Shown here piece by piece: positions 1 through 7,425 of a DNA stretch of 64,000 nucleotides. The translations under genes and the position numbers were made by a program. The stretch's first letter is position 1; every line of letters begins with the position of its first letter. The notes beneath the pieces are model-generated. The model made no database searches. It saw only the letters and a list, made by a program, of their open reading frames with translations, and was not told the origin of the DNA. Source of the DNA: Myxococcus xanthus (GTDB lineage: Bacteria > Myxococcota > Myxococcia > Myxococcales > Myxococcaceae); assembly GCF_006402735.1 (NCBI RefSeq), contig NZ_CP017174.1:6924001-6988000 (forward strand), read 5' to 3'.

Positions 1-252
1 GAAGCGGCGCCCCAGGAGCGGTGGGAACGCGTGTCTCGCGACGAGTTCCAGCGGGCCATCGACCAGCTGCGCCCGCCGCACCTGCGCGACGCCTATCGCC
101 TGCACGTCGCGGGGTTGCGGTACCGGGCCATTGCCCAGCAACTCCGCTCGACGGAAGGGACGGTGGGACGGTGGCTCACGGAGGCGCGGCAGGCGCTGCG
201 CGAGCTGCTGGGCGGCAAGGACGCCTCGCACGAAGGCATGGCTGAATCATGA
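1..252 (+). CDS. RNA polymerase sigma factor, C-terminal part (5' end outside window)
   Basis: The reading frame is open from base 1, so this is the end of a longer gene. About 83 residues are visible. They form a sigma-70 region 4 helix-turn-helix, seen in the stretch YRAIAQQLRSTEGTVGRWL, the part that contacts the -35 element. Its TGA stop overlaps the ATG of the next gene by 4 nt (ATGA), so the two are translationally coupled. The next protein starts with an anti-sigma zinc motif, which fits an ECF-type sigma / anti-sigma pair. The ECF group cannot be assigned without region 2. A GTG at 31 could serve as an internal start but would leave only region 4. Confidence 0.85.
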   Translation, partial: EAAPQERWERVSRDEFQRAIDQLRPPHLRDAYRLHVAGLRYRAIAQQLRSTEGTVGRWLTEARQALRELLGGKDASHEGMAES

Positions 253-3176
253 GCAGCGTCTGCGACAACCTGGAGCGTTTCGTCGACGGGGAGATGCTCC
301 CCGCGGACGCGGAGAACTTCCGCCACCACCTGGCCCGCTGCGCGGCGTGCGAGTCGCGGATGAAGGAGCTGCTCGCCCTGGAGTTGCTCTCCGACGACGC
401 GCTGAACAGCCCGGGGCCGGAGCGCCTCGGCGCGACTTCGCGCTGGAGGAACAAGTCCTGGCTCATGGTGGTGCCGCTCGCGCTCGCCGCGGGCCTGGCC
501 GCGCTCGTGCTGGTCCCCCAGACGCAGCCCACCGACGCCGCCCCCGAGCTCTGGCTGGCGGAAGCGGCCACCCGGCCCCTCGAAGTCCGCCTCACCCATC
601 CCGGCGCGGACGGACACCGGCCCTACCAGGTGATGCGCAGCGGCACGGGCGCCCGGCCCCAGGCCCTGGCGCTGCGCGAGCTGGCCCGGCTGGAGGAAGC
701 GGCGGACCACCGGGGCATCGCCTCGGCCTTCCTGCTGCGCGGTGACCTGGCCCAGGCCTCCGCGTTCCTCGACAAGCTGCCCGCCTCCGCCGACCTGGAC
801 ACGGACCGCGCGGCCCTGGCGCTCCAACAGGATGAACCGGAGAAGGCGCTCGTCCTGCTGGAGCGCGCGCTGAAGCGGAAGCCTCGCCATGCCCAGGCGC
901 TCTGGAACCAGGCGCTGGCGCTCCAGCGGCTCGGCCTGTCACTGCGCGCCGCGGAGTCCTTCGAACAGGTGGCGCAGCTCGGCGAGCGCGGTTGGAGCGA
1001 CGAGGCCGCCCAGCGCGCCCAGGCGCTGCGAAACGCGGCGGAGCAGGAGCGGAAGGACTGGAAGGGCATGCGGCAGGACTGCCAACGCATGGTGGATGGC
1101 GGCGCGCCACTCTCCACCGCGCAGGCGGAGACACTGCCAGGCATGGCGCGCGTGTGCCTCTACAACGCCCTGCGCGCCGCTGCCTCGCCCGAGCGCGTGG
1201 AGTCCCTGCATCCCCTGGCGGTGGTGCTGGACCGCAAGGAGGACGGCACGCACCTGGAAGATGCCCTGCGTCGCACCGCGCGGCGGGACTTCTCCGCACG
1301 CACGCCCCTGGCCAGTGAGTACGCACGCCTCACCCGGGGCGAGGTGAAGGGCGCCGCGCTGGAGTCCTTCCTGTCGCGGCTGCGCGAAGCCCGGCAAGAG
1401 GACCTGCTGCTGGGCGCGCTCGCCTATGCGGACCCGCGCCAGTTCCCGGACGAGTACCGGGCGCTCGCGTTGGAGACGAAGGACCCGTGGTTCGCGCTGC
1501 TGGCCGAGGAGCGGCAGGCCCGGGCGGACGCCCTGGCGGATGCCCCGCAGCGCGCGCGGGAGCGGCTCCAGGCCGCGGTGAAGACGTGCACGGCCTCCGG
1601 GAGGCAGCTGTACCGGTGCATGTTGATGCAGCGGGAGCTGGGGCTGGTGATGGCGCGGCTGCACCGCCCCGTCGATGCACGCGCCCGCTTCGTGGGCGCC
1701 CTGCGCGCCGCGCGCGACAGCCGGGAGTGGGGTTCTCAGCGGAACCTGCTCCAGGACTTGGGACAGGTAGCCCGGACGCAGGGAGACCTGGTGCTGGCCC
1801 GGGCCTACGTGGAGGAGCTGCTGCTCCAGACGCCCGAGGGCTGCGCGGACTCCGAGGTGGCGCTCACCAGCCTGGCGCTCGCGCACCACCGCGCGCTGGA
1901 TGTCGCGGGTGCCCGGGAGCTGCTCGACCGGGCCATCCAGTGCAGTCAAAAGCCCTCCATGGCGCGGCTGGCCCTGCTGGCCGACCTGGCCCGCACGCCC
2001 TTCCGTAAGCCGGAGGACGCGCGGCTGCTGGAGCAGGGCCTGGGGGCGCTGCGCGATTCGGGCACGCAGGACGCGGGGGACCTCGCGCTGCTGCGCCACA
2101 TCGAGGGACGCTTCTACCTGGAGCAGGACGCGCACAGGGGGCAGGCGCTGTTACGGCAGGCGCTGGCCGACACAACCAAGCTGCCGGCGGCGAACGTGAG
2201 CGCGCGCAAGGCCCGCGTCTACAGCTACACGTCACTCATCTTCGACGCGGGCCGGACGGGCGAACTGGCGCAGGGGCTGGCCCTCTTCTCCGAGGAGCAC
2301 GCCATGCCCGCACCGGAGCGCTGCGTGCTGGGCGTCACGGTGGACGACGAGCGGACCTTCGTCGTGGCCCGGGACGCGGAGGGACGCCTCCTCGGCCACC
2401 ACGACACCGGCCGGACGGCGCCGCTGGAAGGCGTCGAAGGCCTGGTGCCCGGCGCGGTGGTGAAGGCCCTGCGCGCCTGCCCCAGCGTGGACATCCTCGC
2501 GAGGCCGCCGGTGCAGGGGCGCGCGGGGCTGCTGCCGTCCGATATCGCCTGGTCCTACCGGGTGGGCGGCCTGCCCAATACGCCGCCGTCCCAAGCGAAG
2601 GCCCAGCGGCTCATCGTGACGGACGTGCTGGCGCCCGCGTCGCTGCACCTGCCCACGCTGCGCGCGTGGAACCCGGCCAGCGACACGGGCGAGGGCCGCA
2701 CCCTGCTCCGCGGAGCCGAGGCCACGCCGCCGCGCGTCCTCGCCGCCATGCGGGATGCAACCGAGGTGCAGGTCCACGCGCACGGCATCATCGACCCGTC
2801 GGTGGCGGATGCCTCCGTCCTCGTGCTCTCACCGGAGGCCACGGGCGGGCGCTTCGCGCTCACCACGGGCGACCTGAAGGGACAGCGGCTGCGGGGCCGG
2901 CCGGTGGTGCTGCTCGCGGCCTGCTACGCGGGCCATACCAGCGCGTACCTGCATGAGAACTTCGGACTGCCGCTGGCCTTCATCGAATCCGGAGCGCGGG
3001 CCGTCCTCGCCGCCACGCAGGAGATTCCCGACGACGAAGCGCACGCCTTCTTCGAGCCCGTCCTCGCGCGGATTCGCGAAGGCGTCCCCGCGACCGTGGC
3101 CCTGCGCGACGAACGTCAGGCATGGTTGCGGCGACACGCCAGCTCCTGGGTCCAGCAGGTGCTCCTCTTCGAGTAG
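249..3176 (+). CDS. Anti-sigma factor with TPR-like region and C-terminal CHAT protease domain
   Basis: 975 residues in four parts. Residues 1-40 carry the anti-sigma zinc motif H27-x3-C31-x2-C34 (zf-HC2 type). Residues about 71-90 are one hydrophobic segment with basic residues before it. Residues about 120-700 are alanine/leucine-rich helical repeats resembling TPRs. The C-terminal ~200 residues resemble a CHAT domain (caspase/separase-like cysteine protease) with the expected His in HAHG (H845) and Cys in LLAACYAG (C892). Coupling to the sigma gene suggests it restrains that sigma factor. If the hydrophobic segment spans the membrane, the TPR and CHAT parts lie in the periplasm, which is unusual for a CHAT protein. 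The domain reading is by motif and the function is inferred. Confidence 0.82.
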   Translation: MSSVCDNLERFVDGEMLPADAENFRHHLARCAACESRMKELLALELLSDDALNSPGPERLGATSRWRNKSWLMVVPLALAAGLAALVLVPQTQPTDAAPELWLAEAATRPLEVRLTHPGADGHRPYQVMRSGTGARPQALALRELARLEEAADHRGIASAFLLRGDLAQASAFLDKLPASADLDTDRAALALQQDEPEKALVLLERALKRKPRHAQALWNQALALQRLGLSLRAAESFEQVAQLGERGWSDEAAQRAQALRNAAEQERKDWKGMRQDCQRMVDGGAPLSTAQAETLPGMARVCLYNALRAAASPERVESLHPLAVVLDRKEDGTHLEDALRRTARRDFSARTPLASEYARLTRGEVKGAALESFLSRLREARQEDLLLGALAYADPRQFPDEYRALALETKDPWFALLAEERQARADALADAPQRARERLQAAVKTCTASGRQLYRCMLMQRELGLVMARLHRPVDARARFVGALRAARDSREWGSQRNLLQDLGQVARTQGDLVLARAYVEELLLQTPEGCADSEVALTSLALAHHRALDVAGARELLDRAIQCSQKPSMARLALLADLARTPFRKPEDARLLEQGLGALRDSGTQDAGDLALLRHIEGRFYLEQDAHRGQALLRQALADTTKLPAANVSARKARVYSYTSLIFDAGRTGELAQGLALFSEEHAMPAPERCVLGVTVDDERTFVVARDAEGRLLGHHDTGRTAPLEGVEGLVPGAVVKALRACPSVDILARPPVQGRAGLLPSDIAWSYRVGGLPNTPPSQAKAQRLIVTDVLAPASLHLPTLRAWNPASDTGEGRTLLRGAEATPPRVLAAMRDATEVQVHAHGIIDPSVADASVLVLSPEATGGRFALTTGDLKGQRLRGRPVVLLAACYAGHTSAYLHENFGLPLAFIESGARAVLAATQEIPDDEAHAFFEPVLARIREGVPATVALRDERQAWLRRHASSWVQQVLLFE

Positions 3177-3211
3177 TCCCCTCCCCTCATCCATCGAGTG
3201 AGTTCATCCCC

Positions 3212-3748
3212 ATGAAGAAGTACCTGCTCCCCCTCTCGTGTCTGTTCCTGGCCTCGGCCTGCCGGCACATCGGCAACACGCCGGACTGGAACCCCTCGGA
3301 GGACATCCCGGCGGGCACCGATGTCCGCATCACCCTGCAAGACGTCCGCAATCCCCAACGGCGCTCCACCTACGTGGTGGACCCGCGCACGGGCACCGTG
3401 GTGGAGCGACGGGATGGCAAGCGTGCATACGCGGTCGCGGACCCCCAGTCGCTCGACACCGAGTCCACGGGCGAGGCCACGCAGGCGGCCCTCGCGCCCA
3501 CCAGCAGCGTCACCGTTGCCATGTCCGTCAACTGCCGGGACTCCCTGACGTCGCCGGATGGCTGTGTGGACCTGGCCATCGACCCCAAGCATGAGACGTC
3601 CGGCGACCCGAACCCCATCAAGGAGGAGAAGCGGCGCATCGCCATCACGGAGCGCTACGTGAAGCAACTGGCCGTGAACGTCCTGCAGACGGCGCACCGC
3701 GCCGGCGTCCAGGTGCACGTGCCCGCGCCCCGGCGCATCTCGAAGTAA
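3212..3748 (+). CDS. Putative outer-membrane lipoprotein downstream of the sigma/anti-sigma-CHAT pair
   Basis: 178 residues. The start at 3212 is chosen because it gives a signal peptide (MKKYLLPLSCLFLASAC) with a lipobox ending at the first cysteine. The residue after that cysteine is Arg, so inner-membrane retention is not expected. The mature protein has few recognisable motifs, two further cysteines (NCRDSLTSPDGC) and a helical C-terminus. It begins 35 bp after the CHAT gene on the same strand and is probably cotranscribed with it. It could be a ligand, substrate or partner of the CHAT protein. I do not recognise a family. Confidence 0.72.
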   Translation: MKKYLLPLSCLFLASACRHIGNTPDWNPSEDIPAGTDVRITLQDVRNPQRRSTYVVDPRTGTVVERRDGKRAYAVADPQSLDTESTGEATQAALAPTSSVTVAMSVNCRDSLTSPDGCVDLAIDPKHETSGDPNPIKEEKRRIAITERYVKQLAVNVLQTAHRAGVQVHVPAPRRISK

Positions 3749-3762
3749 CGGTCCACGCGGGG

Positions 3763-6700
3763 CTACCGCGCGTCCGCCCCCGAGGCTCCCTCGGGGGATG
3801 GAGCCGCCGGCACGAGCCCGCTCAACGTCTCCACGTAGGTGGCGGCCACGCGGAGGAAGCGCGCGCCCTTCACTCCGGTGAGATACTGCCGCTTCATCGC
3901 GCGCGTCGCGCCCACGTAGAACATGGCGCGGCGGATGCGCTCGTTCTCCCGGGCCGAGCGCTCGCGGGCACCGGCCATCCACTGCTCCGCGGTGTCCAGC
4001 GCGTCCAGGCCCGCGAAGAAGACGATGGGGCATTCGTGCCCCTTGCAGGAGAACACCGTGGTGGCGCGCACGTGGTCCACGCCGCTGACGCGGAAGTCCG
4101 TCACGTTGCGCCCACCCTTGCCGCCGTAGGCCTCCGCGGGCACGCCCGCGCGCTTGAGCGCCTCCGTGTACTGGGAGGGCATGACGGGGGCCACCACGAG
4201 AATGTCACTGGGGTGGACACCCTCCTCGCGGATGAGGCGGGCCACCTCGCGAGCCACCTGCCGCGCCTCGCTGGCGCTGGAAGCGAAGCCGCGCACCTGG
4301 GGCAGCACGCCGCCGCGCTCGGTGGACTGCACGCGGAAGAGGCCTTCCAGCGTCTCCTCCGGAAGCCAGACGAGCCCCTCGCGCGCCAGTTCGCCCACCT
4401 TCATGTATTCGCGCATGCCGGGCTCGGCCGCGGCGTGCTGGCGCAGCGGGTCCAGCACCACGTTGAAGGCCACGTCGAGGATGTCCCGGGTGGCGCGGAA
4501 CGTCTCCTTGAGGACGCGGGTGCGGCCACGGAACGACAGCCCTTCAGGCAGCTGCTCCTTGAGCGCGTCGATGGGCACCTGGCCATAGACGTTCTGCGAG
4601 TCGTCCATGAAGAGCTGGAAGCAGCGCACCTCGCGCCCGTCCGGCAGCGTGTCCGGACGCACCAGCGCGTGGAGCATGGCCAGCGCCTTGGCGTCCATGT
4701 CCTGCGCCTCGTCCACGAAGACGCCGTCGAAGGAGGCGGGCGCATGACGGCGCAGCGCCCCCACGTGCCGCACCGTCACCCGCGCGCGCAGCTCGCGCAC
4801 CCGCAAGCGGCCCGCGCGCTGGGCCAGCGCCTCCACCAACAACTTGTCCACCAGCGGGGCCAGCGCACGGTTGAAGAAGGACACCAGCACCTGCGCTTCG
4901 GAGTGCTCCAGCAGGTAGCGCGCCACCCAATGCGCCAGCACGTACGTCTTGCCGCTGCCCGCCACGCCCCGCACCAGGTGGTGCCCGTCGTCGAAGCGGC
5001 GCTCGAAGAGGGACACCTGCTCGTGTGTGAAGAGGGGCTTGCCAGGCCGCGCGCCCGAGATTTCCGCGCCCAGGTCCACCGGCACCGGCGGGGGTGGTGG
5101 CGGCGGCGCGCGCTGCGGCACGGGCAGCGGCTCCAGGCGCAGCGGCTCACCGGGGTGCACGCGAAGGCGCGGCAGCAGCGACAGGAAGCGCTGGGGAATG
5201 GTGGCGGCGCGGGCCTCGTCGCGCGAGGCCAGGACCAGCAGATAGTCCTTCGCGCGGCTGGCGGCCACGTTGAGCATGGGCACCAGCGTGTGGGGAGGAA
5301 AGGGCCTCCCTCCGGCGACGGTGTCCACCAGCACCACGTCATACTGGGTGCCCTGCTGGCGATGGATGGTGGACGCGCTGAAGACGTCCCCGCGCAGACC
5401 CGCGGCATTGCCCAGCCGGCGCAGCAGCGCGGCCTGCGCGCGGTAGGGCGTGACACACAAGACGCTGAGGCCGGAGCGCACCGCCTCGCGCGCCAGGGAC
5501 ACGGCGAGGTTGGCGGACAGCTCGCGCTGGTAGCCGGAGCCCGTCTCCCCGCGTCCGTGCGTAAGGCGCTTCGAATCTCGCGTGAGCCCGTCCAGCACCA
5601 CCCAGCCCGCGCGCACCGCGGGGAACGAGGCCACCGGGGCGGGCCGCTCCGCGCGCTGCTTGACGACGTCGCCATCCTCCAGCGCGCCGCCGTAGCAGAA
5701 GTGGCTCACCACCTTCGCGATGTCCGGGTGCATGCGGTGCTGGGTGCGCAGCAGCAATACGTCCGCGCGCGCCGCGTCCTTCACCGCGTCTTCCAGGTGC
5801 GACAGCCCGCTGCCGCGAAGCCACTTCTGCGTGCCCTTGCCCGCGCCCTCCGCGGCGCGGCTCACCGGGCCAATCTGCTTCGGGTCACCCGCCAGCGTCA
5901 CCCGCTCCGCCAGCGGCCCCATCAACGCGGTGGCCGCGCGGGTCACCATGCCGGCCTCGTCCACCACCAGCCGCGCGAAGTGCCGCTTTCCCTCCAGCTC
6001 CGACACCAGACGCAGCGCGCGGTGCACGGTGACCACCACCAGCGGGCAGTCCCCCTTCTCCACTTCCTTGAGCGTGGGGTCCTTCACCTTGCCGCGCAGC
6101 CCGCGCAGCTCCGCCTGGAGCTTGGCCAGCTCATGGGCGGGACCGCCTCGCACCCGCTGGAGGATGAGCTCCCGCTCCCGCTCCTCGATGCTGGCGCGCA
6201 GCTTGCCGCCCTTGGTGTCCTCCAGCATGACGGTGGGCAGCTTCACCAGCGCCTCGCTCGCGCCGGTGCCGCCACGGAAGATGCTGCGCGCCAGGGGCCG
6301 CAGCGGAATGGGCTCGCGCTCCAACAGCGCGCTGACGCGGAGGACCAGCTCGTCCGCGGCGCGGTTGGTGGGCGCCACGGCGAGGATGCGCTCACCCGGG
6401 AAGGCGCGCAGCGCCCGCGCGATGAGGTCCGCCACGGCCGTCGTCTTACCCGTACCGGGAGGTCCCCAGATGCAGCCCCAGGGCTGGCGCCACAGCCGGT
6501 CGGCCGGAATCAGGGCCTCGTCCCGAGGCGTCAGAGAGACCGGAGGCGCCTCCCCACAGGCGCGGCTCAGAGACTCAGCGAGGGCGTCCTGCCGCTCTTC
6601 GTAAGCGGAGGCCGCCGCGCACAAAGCCTCTGCGAAGTCATAGGGCCGGTAGCACCAGCGGTCCGCGGTCAGCGCGCGGCGGTCCACGTCATCACCGTGG

Positions 6701-7425
6701 CTGGGCGCGGCGAACACCCGCCCCGATTCGAAATCCAGGTGGACGACGTCTCCGCCGAAGACGCACTCCTCCCCCAGGAAGCCGAGCACCGAACCTCCCG
6801 ACCAGTCCGGGTCCGCCGCCGGTCGCGGGATGAGCGACAGCACCCCCGGCCCCTGGAGGCTGACCTCGCGCACGTCCTGCAGCAGCTGCGCTCGGTATTG
6901 GCTGCGCTCGGACAGCAGCGCCTCCCGCAGGTCCTCCGGAAGATACGCGGGCGGAGCCCAGAGCTCGCGGCGCTTCCCGGTGGCCACCGCGGCGCGCATC
7001 GCCTCGCGCTCCGCGGGGCTGACGTCCTCTGGCGCGGAGACATCCCGGGACGGAACGTCCTCTCCGCCTTCCCGTCCTCGCGCCATCCGGGAAACGAGCA
7101 GCAACGGATTCGGGGCCCGGGCCACGTCCGCCTTCTCCTCGGTGGGCTCGGGTGCCTGGGGTGGCTCCACACGCACCGCGGTCTCGGTGCGCCGCAGCGC
7201 CACCTCCTCCTCACGACGCGGCTCGGGTGCCTGGAACGTGTTGCGCCAGCGCGGCACTGAACCTACCCGCTGGGGCGGAGCGGCTTCGGGCGGAGGCGCA
7301 TCGTCGTACTCGACATGCAACTCACGCGTGGACGATGGCGCCTGCGAGTCCCCGTCTCCGGGCTCCGCCGCCTCGCCCGCCCGTCCCGCCTCCGGCCCAC
7401 GCATCATCGGACGCGCGGCCTCCAC
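3763..7425 (-). CDS. Tandem SF1 helicase (IGHMBP2/Dna2-like half plus UvrD-like half)
   Basis: 1220 residues with two complete SF1 helicase motor sets. The first has Walker A GPPGTGKT (about 321-328), motif II VVDEAG (about 487-492), motif III LAGDPKQIGP, QHRMHPDI, STIHRQQGTQYD and VAASRAKD, a pattern of Upf1/IGHMBP2/Dna2-like enzymes. After a poly-proline linker (about 770-785) the second has GVAGSGKT (about 820-827), VDEAQD (about 904-909), FMDDSQNVYG, ETFRATRDI, FSCKGHEC and YVGATRA, a UvrD/Rep-like set. The first ~150 residues are charged and low in complexity. No nuclease motif is visible. The start at 7425 is GTG; ATG codons at 7407 and 7404 are alternatives. Expected role: nucleic-acid unwinding or remodelling. 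Confidence 0.85.
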   Translation of the reverse strand: MEAARPMMRGPEAGRAGEAAEPGDGDSQAPSSTRELHVEYDDAPPPEAAPPQRVGSVPRWRNTFQAPEPRREEEVALRRTETAVRVEPPQAPEPTEEKADVARAPNPLLLVSRMARGREGGEDVPSRDVSAPEDVSPAEREAMRAAVATGKRRELWAPPAYLPEDLREALLSERSQYRAQLLQDVREVSLQGPGVLSLIPRPAADPDWSGGSVLGFLGEECVFGGDVVHLDFESGRVFAAPSHGDDVDRRALTADRWCYRPYDFAEALCAAASAYEERQDALAESLSRACGEAPPVSLTPRDEALIPADRLWRQPWGCIWGPPGTGKTTAVADLIARALRAFPGERILAVAPTNRAADELVLRVSALLEREPIPLRPLARSIFRGGTGASEALVKLPTVMLEDTKGGKLRASIEERERELILQRVRGGPAHELAKLQAELRGLRGKVKDPTLKEVEKGDCPLVVVTVHRALRLVSELEGKRHFARLVVDEAGMVTRAATALMGPLAERVTLAGDPKQIGPVSRAAEGAGKGTQKWLRGSGLSHLEDAVKDAARADVLLLRTQHRMHPDIAKVVSHFCYGGALEDGDVVKQRAERPAPVASFPAVRAGWVVLDGLTRDSKRLTHGRGETGSGYQRELSANLAVSLAREAVRSGLSVLCVTPYRAQAALLRRLGNAAGLRGDVFSASTIHRQQGTQYDVVLVDTVAGGRPFPPHTLVPMLNVAASRAKDYLLVLASRDEARAATIPQRFLSLLPRLRVHPGEPLRLEPLPVPQRAPPPPPPPVPVDLGAEISGARPGKPLFTHEQVSLFERRFDDGHHLVRGVAGSGKTYVLAHWVARYLLEHSEAQVLVSFFNRALAPLVDKLLVEALAQRAGRLRVRELRARVTVRHVGALRRHAPASFDGVFVDEAQDMDAKALAMLHALVRPDTLPDGREVRCFQLFMDDSQNVYGQVPIDALKEQLPEGLSFRGRTRVLKETFRATRDILDVAFNVVLDPLRQHAAAEPGMREYMKVGELAREGLVWLPEETLEGLFRVQSTERGGVLPQVRGFASSASEARQVAREVARLIREEGVHPSDILVVAPVMPSQYTEALKRAGVPAEAYGGKGGRNVTDFRVSGVDHVRATTVFSCKGHECPIVFFAGLDALDTAEQWMAGARERSARENERIRRAMFYVGATRAMKRQYLTGVKGARFLRVAATYVETLSGLVPAAPSPEGASGADAR

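Follow-up and report, generated by a model that had tools for sequence, protein, structure and literature searches.

The first 3,748 nucleotides of a 64,000-nucleotide stretch of Myxococcus xanthus DNA (assembly GCF_006402735.1, contig NZ_CP017174.1, positions 6,924,001 to 6,988,000 of the forward strand; hereafter the window) hold most of an operon in which an extracytoplasmic function (ECF) sigma factor gene, a gene for a 975-residue anti-sigma protein and a lipoprotein gene follow one another. Our analysis identifies it as a DdvA-type operon with a promoter-like element and a partner gene of its own. The architecture of the anti-sigma protein is real but not new, because its predicted structure matches that of DdvA, a transmembrane anti-sigma factor solved by cryo-electron microscopy (cryo-EM), in which it is already present. 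What is new here is the fast-evolving but conserved lipoprotein, the promoter-like element, a set of split paralogues and the small genes that follow the CHAT genes of the family. On balance, we think it probable that the operon is a membrane signalling system in which an envelope signal leads to cleavage by the CHAT domain, release of the sigma factor and feedback on the operon.

A sequence-only reading of the window had described a zf-HC2 domain, one hydrophobic helix, helical repeats and a CHAT domain in a single protein, and Pfam, hydropathy and an AlphaFold2 model agree on this composition. The zf-HC2 match scores 27.0 bits (cut-off 22.2) and the CHAT match (PF12770, residues 813-963) 52.7 bits (cut-off 24), the CHAT domain spanning residues ~690-975 in the model; the TPR repeats give weak Pfam matches and are also seen as helices in the model, which was built with 62 family sequences and has a predicted local distance difference test score (pLDDT) of 88. 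In the PDB the model matches 8rot and 8rw5 best, both DdvA (Foldseek E 2e-50, TM score 0.79), and it superposes on 8rot_A with Z 46.8 over 863 residues (root-mean-square deviation 3.8). The next structure matches are the TPR-CHAT protein of Craspase (Z ~20), separase (~18) and gingipain (~17). At the sequence level, DdvA aligns with residues 2-975 at 37% identity (phmmer E 5.6e-139), the zinc ligands C5, H27, C31 and C34 are identical, and His845 and Cys892 correspond to His862 and Cys907. The protein carries the marks of the DdvA type: a CHCC zinc domain, a single predicted helix, a TPR-CHAT fold and an ECF sigma gene directly upstream.

Of that sigma gene only the last part (1-252) falls within the window, its GTG start codon being 342 nucleotides further upstream, at genome position 6923659; the whole gene (6923659-6924252, L005:5659-6252) encodes 197 amino acids with Sigma70_r2 and Sigma70_r4_2 above the Pfam cut-off and a TIGR02937 match of 75.4 bits. 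Its stop and the anti-sigma start share four nucleotides (ATGA).

The DdvA-DdvS pair of M. xanthus (PDB 8rot, 8rw5, 8rlz) has the same zf-HC2 domain, single helix, TPR-CHAT ectodomain, His/Cys pair and overlapping ECF sigma gene. Its structure was described by Bernal-Bernal et al. (2024, Sci Adv 10:eadp1053, as cited in PMC12288465), and its inducing signal was still unknown according to a 2015 paper on DdvA. The operon in the window is not the DdvS-DdvA locus itself: in one genome (G118), DdvA itself, at 100% identity to the solved protein, coexists with an orthologue of our protein (97% identity), which makes the two paralogues, and in a tree (disregarding the row L152, which was in the wrong reading frame) DdvA groups with other members in a separate clade. 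No close DdvA was found in the window's own genome. The surroundings also differ, since DdvA in G118 has a sigma gene and a 115-residue gene adjacent, together with other genes that seem to belong to a defence island, and lacks a downstream lipoprotein, whereas the operon described here has the lipoprotein and an upstream element of its own.

Among 145 genomes of the order searched for homologues, 67 contain relatives. All genomes of the genus have several copies, and a CHAT-domain profile gives ~3 to 12 matches per genome there; 97 reading frames were extracted with their flanking DNA. The family is nearly restricted to one bacterial family, plus one genome (G008) of another family in the order. 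Elsewhere in the phylum, the distant CHAT matches from other families look like ordinary CHAT proteins; zf-HC2 was not found in them, in sequences whose N-termini are cut off. A sigma gene lies directly 5' of every family member that has zf-HC2 and flanking DNA, and all four zinc ligands are conserved among homologues, H27, C31 and C34 almost invariantly. The family has expanded in the genus with an invariant pair at the catalytic positions and with paired cysteines. The particular operon in the window has 28 orthologues, in 26 of 27 genomes of the genus and two of a neighbouring genus; in all 28 the sigma and anti-sigma genes overlap at stop and start, and the next gene, a lipoprotein homologue, begins 26-36 nucleotides after the anti-sigma stop. 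The M. xanthus orthologue is 95-97% identical. This recurrence rules out a chance arrangement or frame artefact, and the three-gene order that the sequence-only reading had proposed to look for in databases is conserved throughout.

In the mechanism that we favour, the zf-HC2 domain would keep the cognate ECF sigma factor bound at the membrane. The TPR-CHAT part, possibly with the lipoprotein, would sense an envelope signal that activates the His/Cys CHAT protease, which would then cut the ectodomain of its own protein or of a dimer partner. Further proteolysis would free the sigma factor, and this in turn may drive its own operon, lipoprotein included, through the upstream element, closing a feedback loop. 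The proposal draws on the fold match to DdvA, the invariant dyad, the conserved helix, the cysteine pairs, the upstream sigma gene, the element and the precedent of the CHAT protease Csx29. Several points weigh against it. The Pfam alignment of the CHAT domain covers positions 122-270 of 289 in the profile, that is, its C-terminal half, and the role of the domain as a His/Cys protease is putative; the periplasmic TPR-CHAT part of DdvA is said to have an incomplete His-Cys site, and self-cleavage in trans before sigma release has reportedly been proposed for it. The central idea of the sequence-only reading would thus already have been put forward for a paralogue. Topology, moreover, is a matter of prediction, and autoregulation is suggested by a motif.

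The partial profile match, which looks as if the N-terminal half of the domain were reduced, would suit an alternative that we regard as possible but rather unlikely, in which the CHAT domain works as a sensor or as a scaffold for the dimer and has little or no protease activity, the sigma factor being freed through a change of conformation or by other proteases of the envelope. The incomplete site ascribed to DdvA would suit it too. Several separate lineages, which use a zf-HC2 protein with a transmembrane (TM) helix and TPR repeats but without CHAT as the anti-sigma factor, would also fit such a role. Against this, the dyad sits at exactly the residues named by the sequence-only reading, and the test of its conservation did not refute that reading: all 89 homologues covering His845 and all 88 covering Cys892 have the residue, at 33-97% identity to our protein, while the neighbouring His843 varies (82/89). 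With a Pfam match above cut-off and both residues of the dyad, the protein belongs by sequence to the CHAT peptidases. In 8 of 8 genomes examined, the CHAT-less zf-HC2-TM-TPR gene, which follows its own sigma gene where the flank was read, has a distinct TM-TPR-CHAT gene ~2 kb away, and every CHAT-less anti-sigma seen lies near such a gene. In the window's own genome (locus L006), the order is a gene for a membrane TPR-CHAT protein that lacks zf-HC2, then, on the opposite strand, a Cupin_8/JmjC gene, and finally a sigma gene overlapping the CHAT-less zf-HC2-TM-TPR gene; a second split pair is L061/L062. CHAT can therefore come from another membrane protein.

The lipoprotein gene begins 35 nucleotides after the anti-sigma stop, at the distance that had been read from the sequence, and its product has a lipobox with Cys17. 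The lipobox cysteine and one further cysteine pair are kept in all 27 aligned sequences, although identity falls to 24-30%. Its structure model has modest confidence (pLDDT 67) and no PDB match with E < 0.5, so that the fold is not recognisable, and homologues were found neither in phages nor elsewhere in the window's own genome. The lipoprotein could act as a ligand, inhibitor or substrate. Beyond the orthologues, a lipoprotein-like reading frame follows 39 of 88 family genes, compared with 3 of 211 controls from the same genome, the 39 including related sequences that amount to about eight independent lineages. Because five members without sigma gene or zf-HC2 (the TM-TPR-CHAT genes at L059, L060, L063, L064 and L066) also have a lipoprotein ~40-45 nucleotides downstream, the association tracks the CHAT part. 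These patterns speak for a second alternative, in which CHAT is an envelope effector that cleaves, or is controlled by, the downstream small protein, and the anti-sigma part only reports the reaction. We consider this improbable, as no obvious conserved cleavage site is found among the divergent orthologous lipoproteins and many family members have no lipoprotein at all.

Sequence features and prediction together place zf-HC2 on the cytoplasmic side, one helix in the inner membrane and the TPR-CHAT ectodomain in the periplasm. The protein has a single hydrophobic segment, at residues ~71-89 (mean Kyte-Doolittle 2.51; best elsewhere 1.28), and the corresponding helix is the strongest hydrophobic N-terminal segment in every homologue long enough to include it. 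In 76 of 77 zf-HC2 members, the 15-residue flank on its N-terminal side carries more positive charge than the one on its C-terminal side, and members without zf-HC2 also start with such a helix. The cysteines of the exported part are mostly kept or lost jointly: among 84 full-length sequences, Cys692/Cys744 is present in all, Cys447/Cys457 in 80 and 81, Cys532/Cys565 in 75 and 77 (phi 0.87) and Cys278/Cys303 in 29 and 28 (phi 0.97). DdvA keeps 447/457 and 692/744 and loses both others, which of the two proteins only ours has. Such pairing is expected of periplasmic disulfides and gives independent support for the topology, but it falls short of proof, since only few lineages have the 278/303 pair. 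The sequence-only reading, which put the protease outside the inner membrane on condition that the helix is a membrane segment, is borne out at the level of prediction. That the helix is no membrane segment and the whole protein cytoplasmic is very improbable and can be set aside given the conserved helix, the charge bias, the helix-first members, the paired cysteines and the deposition of DdvA as a transmembrane protein, low AlphaFold confidence around the helix (residues 51-96) being usual for isolated membrane helices.

All 28 orthologues share an element, CGAAGRGA-N12-CGTT (CGAAG-N15-CGTT), 48-53 nucleotides before the sigma start, which is absent before all other sigma genes examined. The full element occurs twice in the window's genome, at this operon and inside an unrelated coding region. 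It may be an autoregulated promoter, in which case the regulon would be very small.

Anti-sigma factors of the RseA/RsiW type are likewise membrane-anchored, and regulated proteolysis is the expected route of release for both; there the protease is a separate protein, whereas here a protease-like domain is built into the anti-sigma protein itself. A CHAT protease that controls an ECF-like sigma factor is known from Craspase (type III-E CRISPR), in which cytoplasmic Csx29 cleaves Csx30 and so relieves inhibition of the ECF-like CASP-sigma (PMC10028731). Craspase has a similar TPR-CHAT fold, but it is cytoplasmic and RNA-activated, with protease and sigma inhibitor as separate proteins; our protein, predicted to be membrane-anchored and having no CRISPR part or Cas7-11 neighbour, does not belong to it. 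ECF54 sigma factors have CHAT, subtilase or carboxypeptidase genes nearby, and proteolysis has been proposed for them, but they were described without an anti-sigma factor (PMC8999054). Both have an ECF sigma gene with CHAT encoded close by, but the presence of a zf-HC2 anti-sigma domain, here in one protein with CHAT, excludes the operon from that group.

Table 1. Coordinates of the operon, its upstream element and related features elsewhere in the same genome (window positions unless stated).
Feature	Coordinates	Strand	Details or basis
ECF sigma factor gene, 3' end	1..252	+	Sigma70_r2, Sigma70_r4_2, TIGR02937
Transmembrane anti-sigma factor with TPR-CHAT ectodomain, DdvA paralogue, 975 amino acids	249..3176	+	
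zf-HC2 zinc-binding anti-sigma domain, residues 5-34	261..350	+	Ligands C5, H27, C31, C34
Single predicted transmembrane helix, residues ~71-89	459..515	+	Hydropathy, positive-inside bias
Helical TPR-type repeat region, residues 142-683, predicted periplasmic	672..2297	+	AlphaFold2 helices, Cys pairs
CHAT (caspase/separase-like) domain, residues 690-975	2316..3173	+	Pfam, structure matches
His845 codon, catalytic position	2781..2783	+	
Cys892 codon, catalytic position	2922..2924	+	
Lipoprotein gene, 178 amino acids	3212..3748	+	Lipobox Cys17; conserved Cys pair C108/C118
CGAAGRGA-N12-CGTT element	Genome 6923607-6923630		Immediately 5' of the window
Split system	Genome ~1147360-1153600 (L006:5361-8141 and L006:9641-11601)		Same layout in seven other genomes
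Short (D)PPPE..GL reading frame	Genome ~6302442-6302642 (L007:6443-6643)		Directly 3' of a zf-HC2-TPR-CHAT gene; 26 similar loci

The immediate neighbourhood of the anti-sigma gene consists of a response regulator, the sigma gene, the lipoprotein and a helicase. The response regulator gene (genome 6922814-6923536, L005:4814-5536), whose product has an uncharacterised C-terminal part, lies directly 5' of the sigma gene. The helicase-like protein of 1220 amino acids (window 3763-7425, minus strand), with an AAA_11/AAA_12 part and a UvrD-type part, is encoded convergently with the lipoprotein gene.

Lipoproteins are not the only small products encoded downstream of the family's CHAT genes. In the clade of the L007 paralogue and its sister groups, the next gene is a reading frame of 50-70 amino acids with a (D)PPPE..GL motif, sometimes repeated, of which 27 were found; the one at L007 has no Pfam match. 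The closest pair of these frames differs at 7, 7 and 21 first, second and third codon positions, and this third-position bias makes them look like real genes. A tentative extension, which we put forward as doubtful, is that protease-partner pairs occur family-wide, each CHAT domain acting on, or being gated by, a downstream small exported protein or (D)PPPE peptide, and that fusion to a zinc anti-sigma domain wired this reaction to transcription in most lineages. With or without this extension, the products of the small downstream genes are candidate ligands, inhibitors or substrates, and the genes offer a direct handle on what activates DdvA-type systems.

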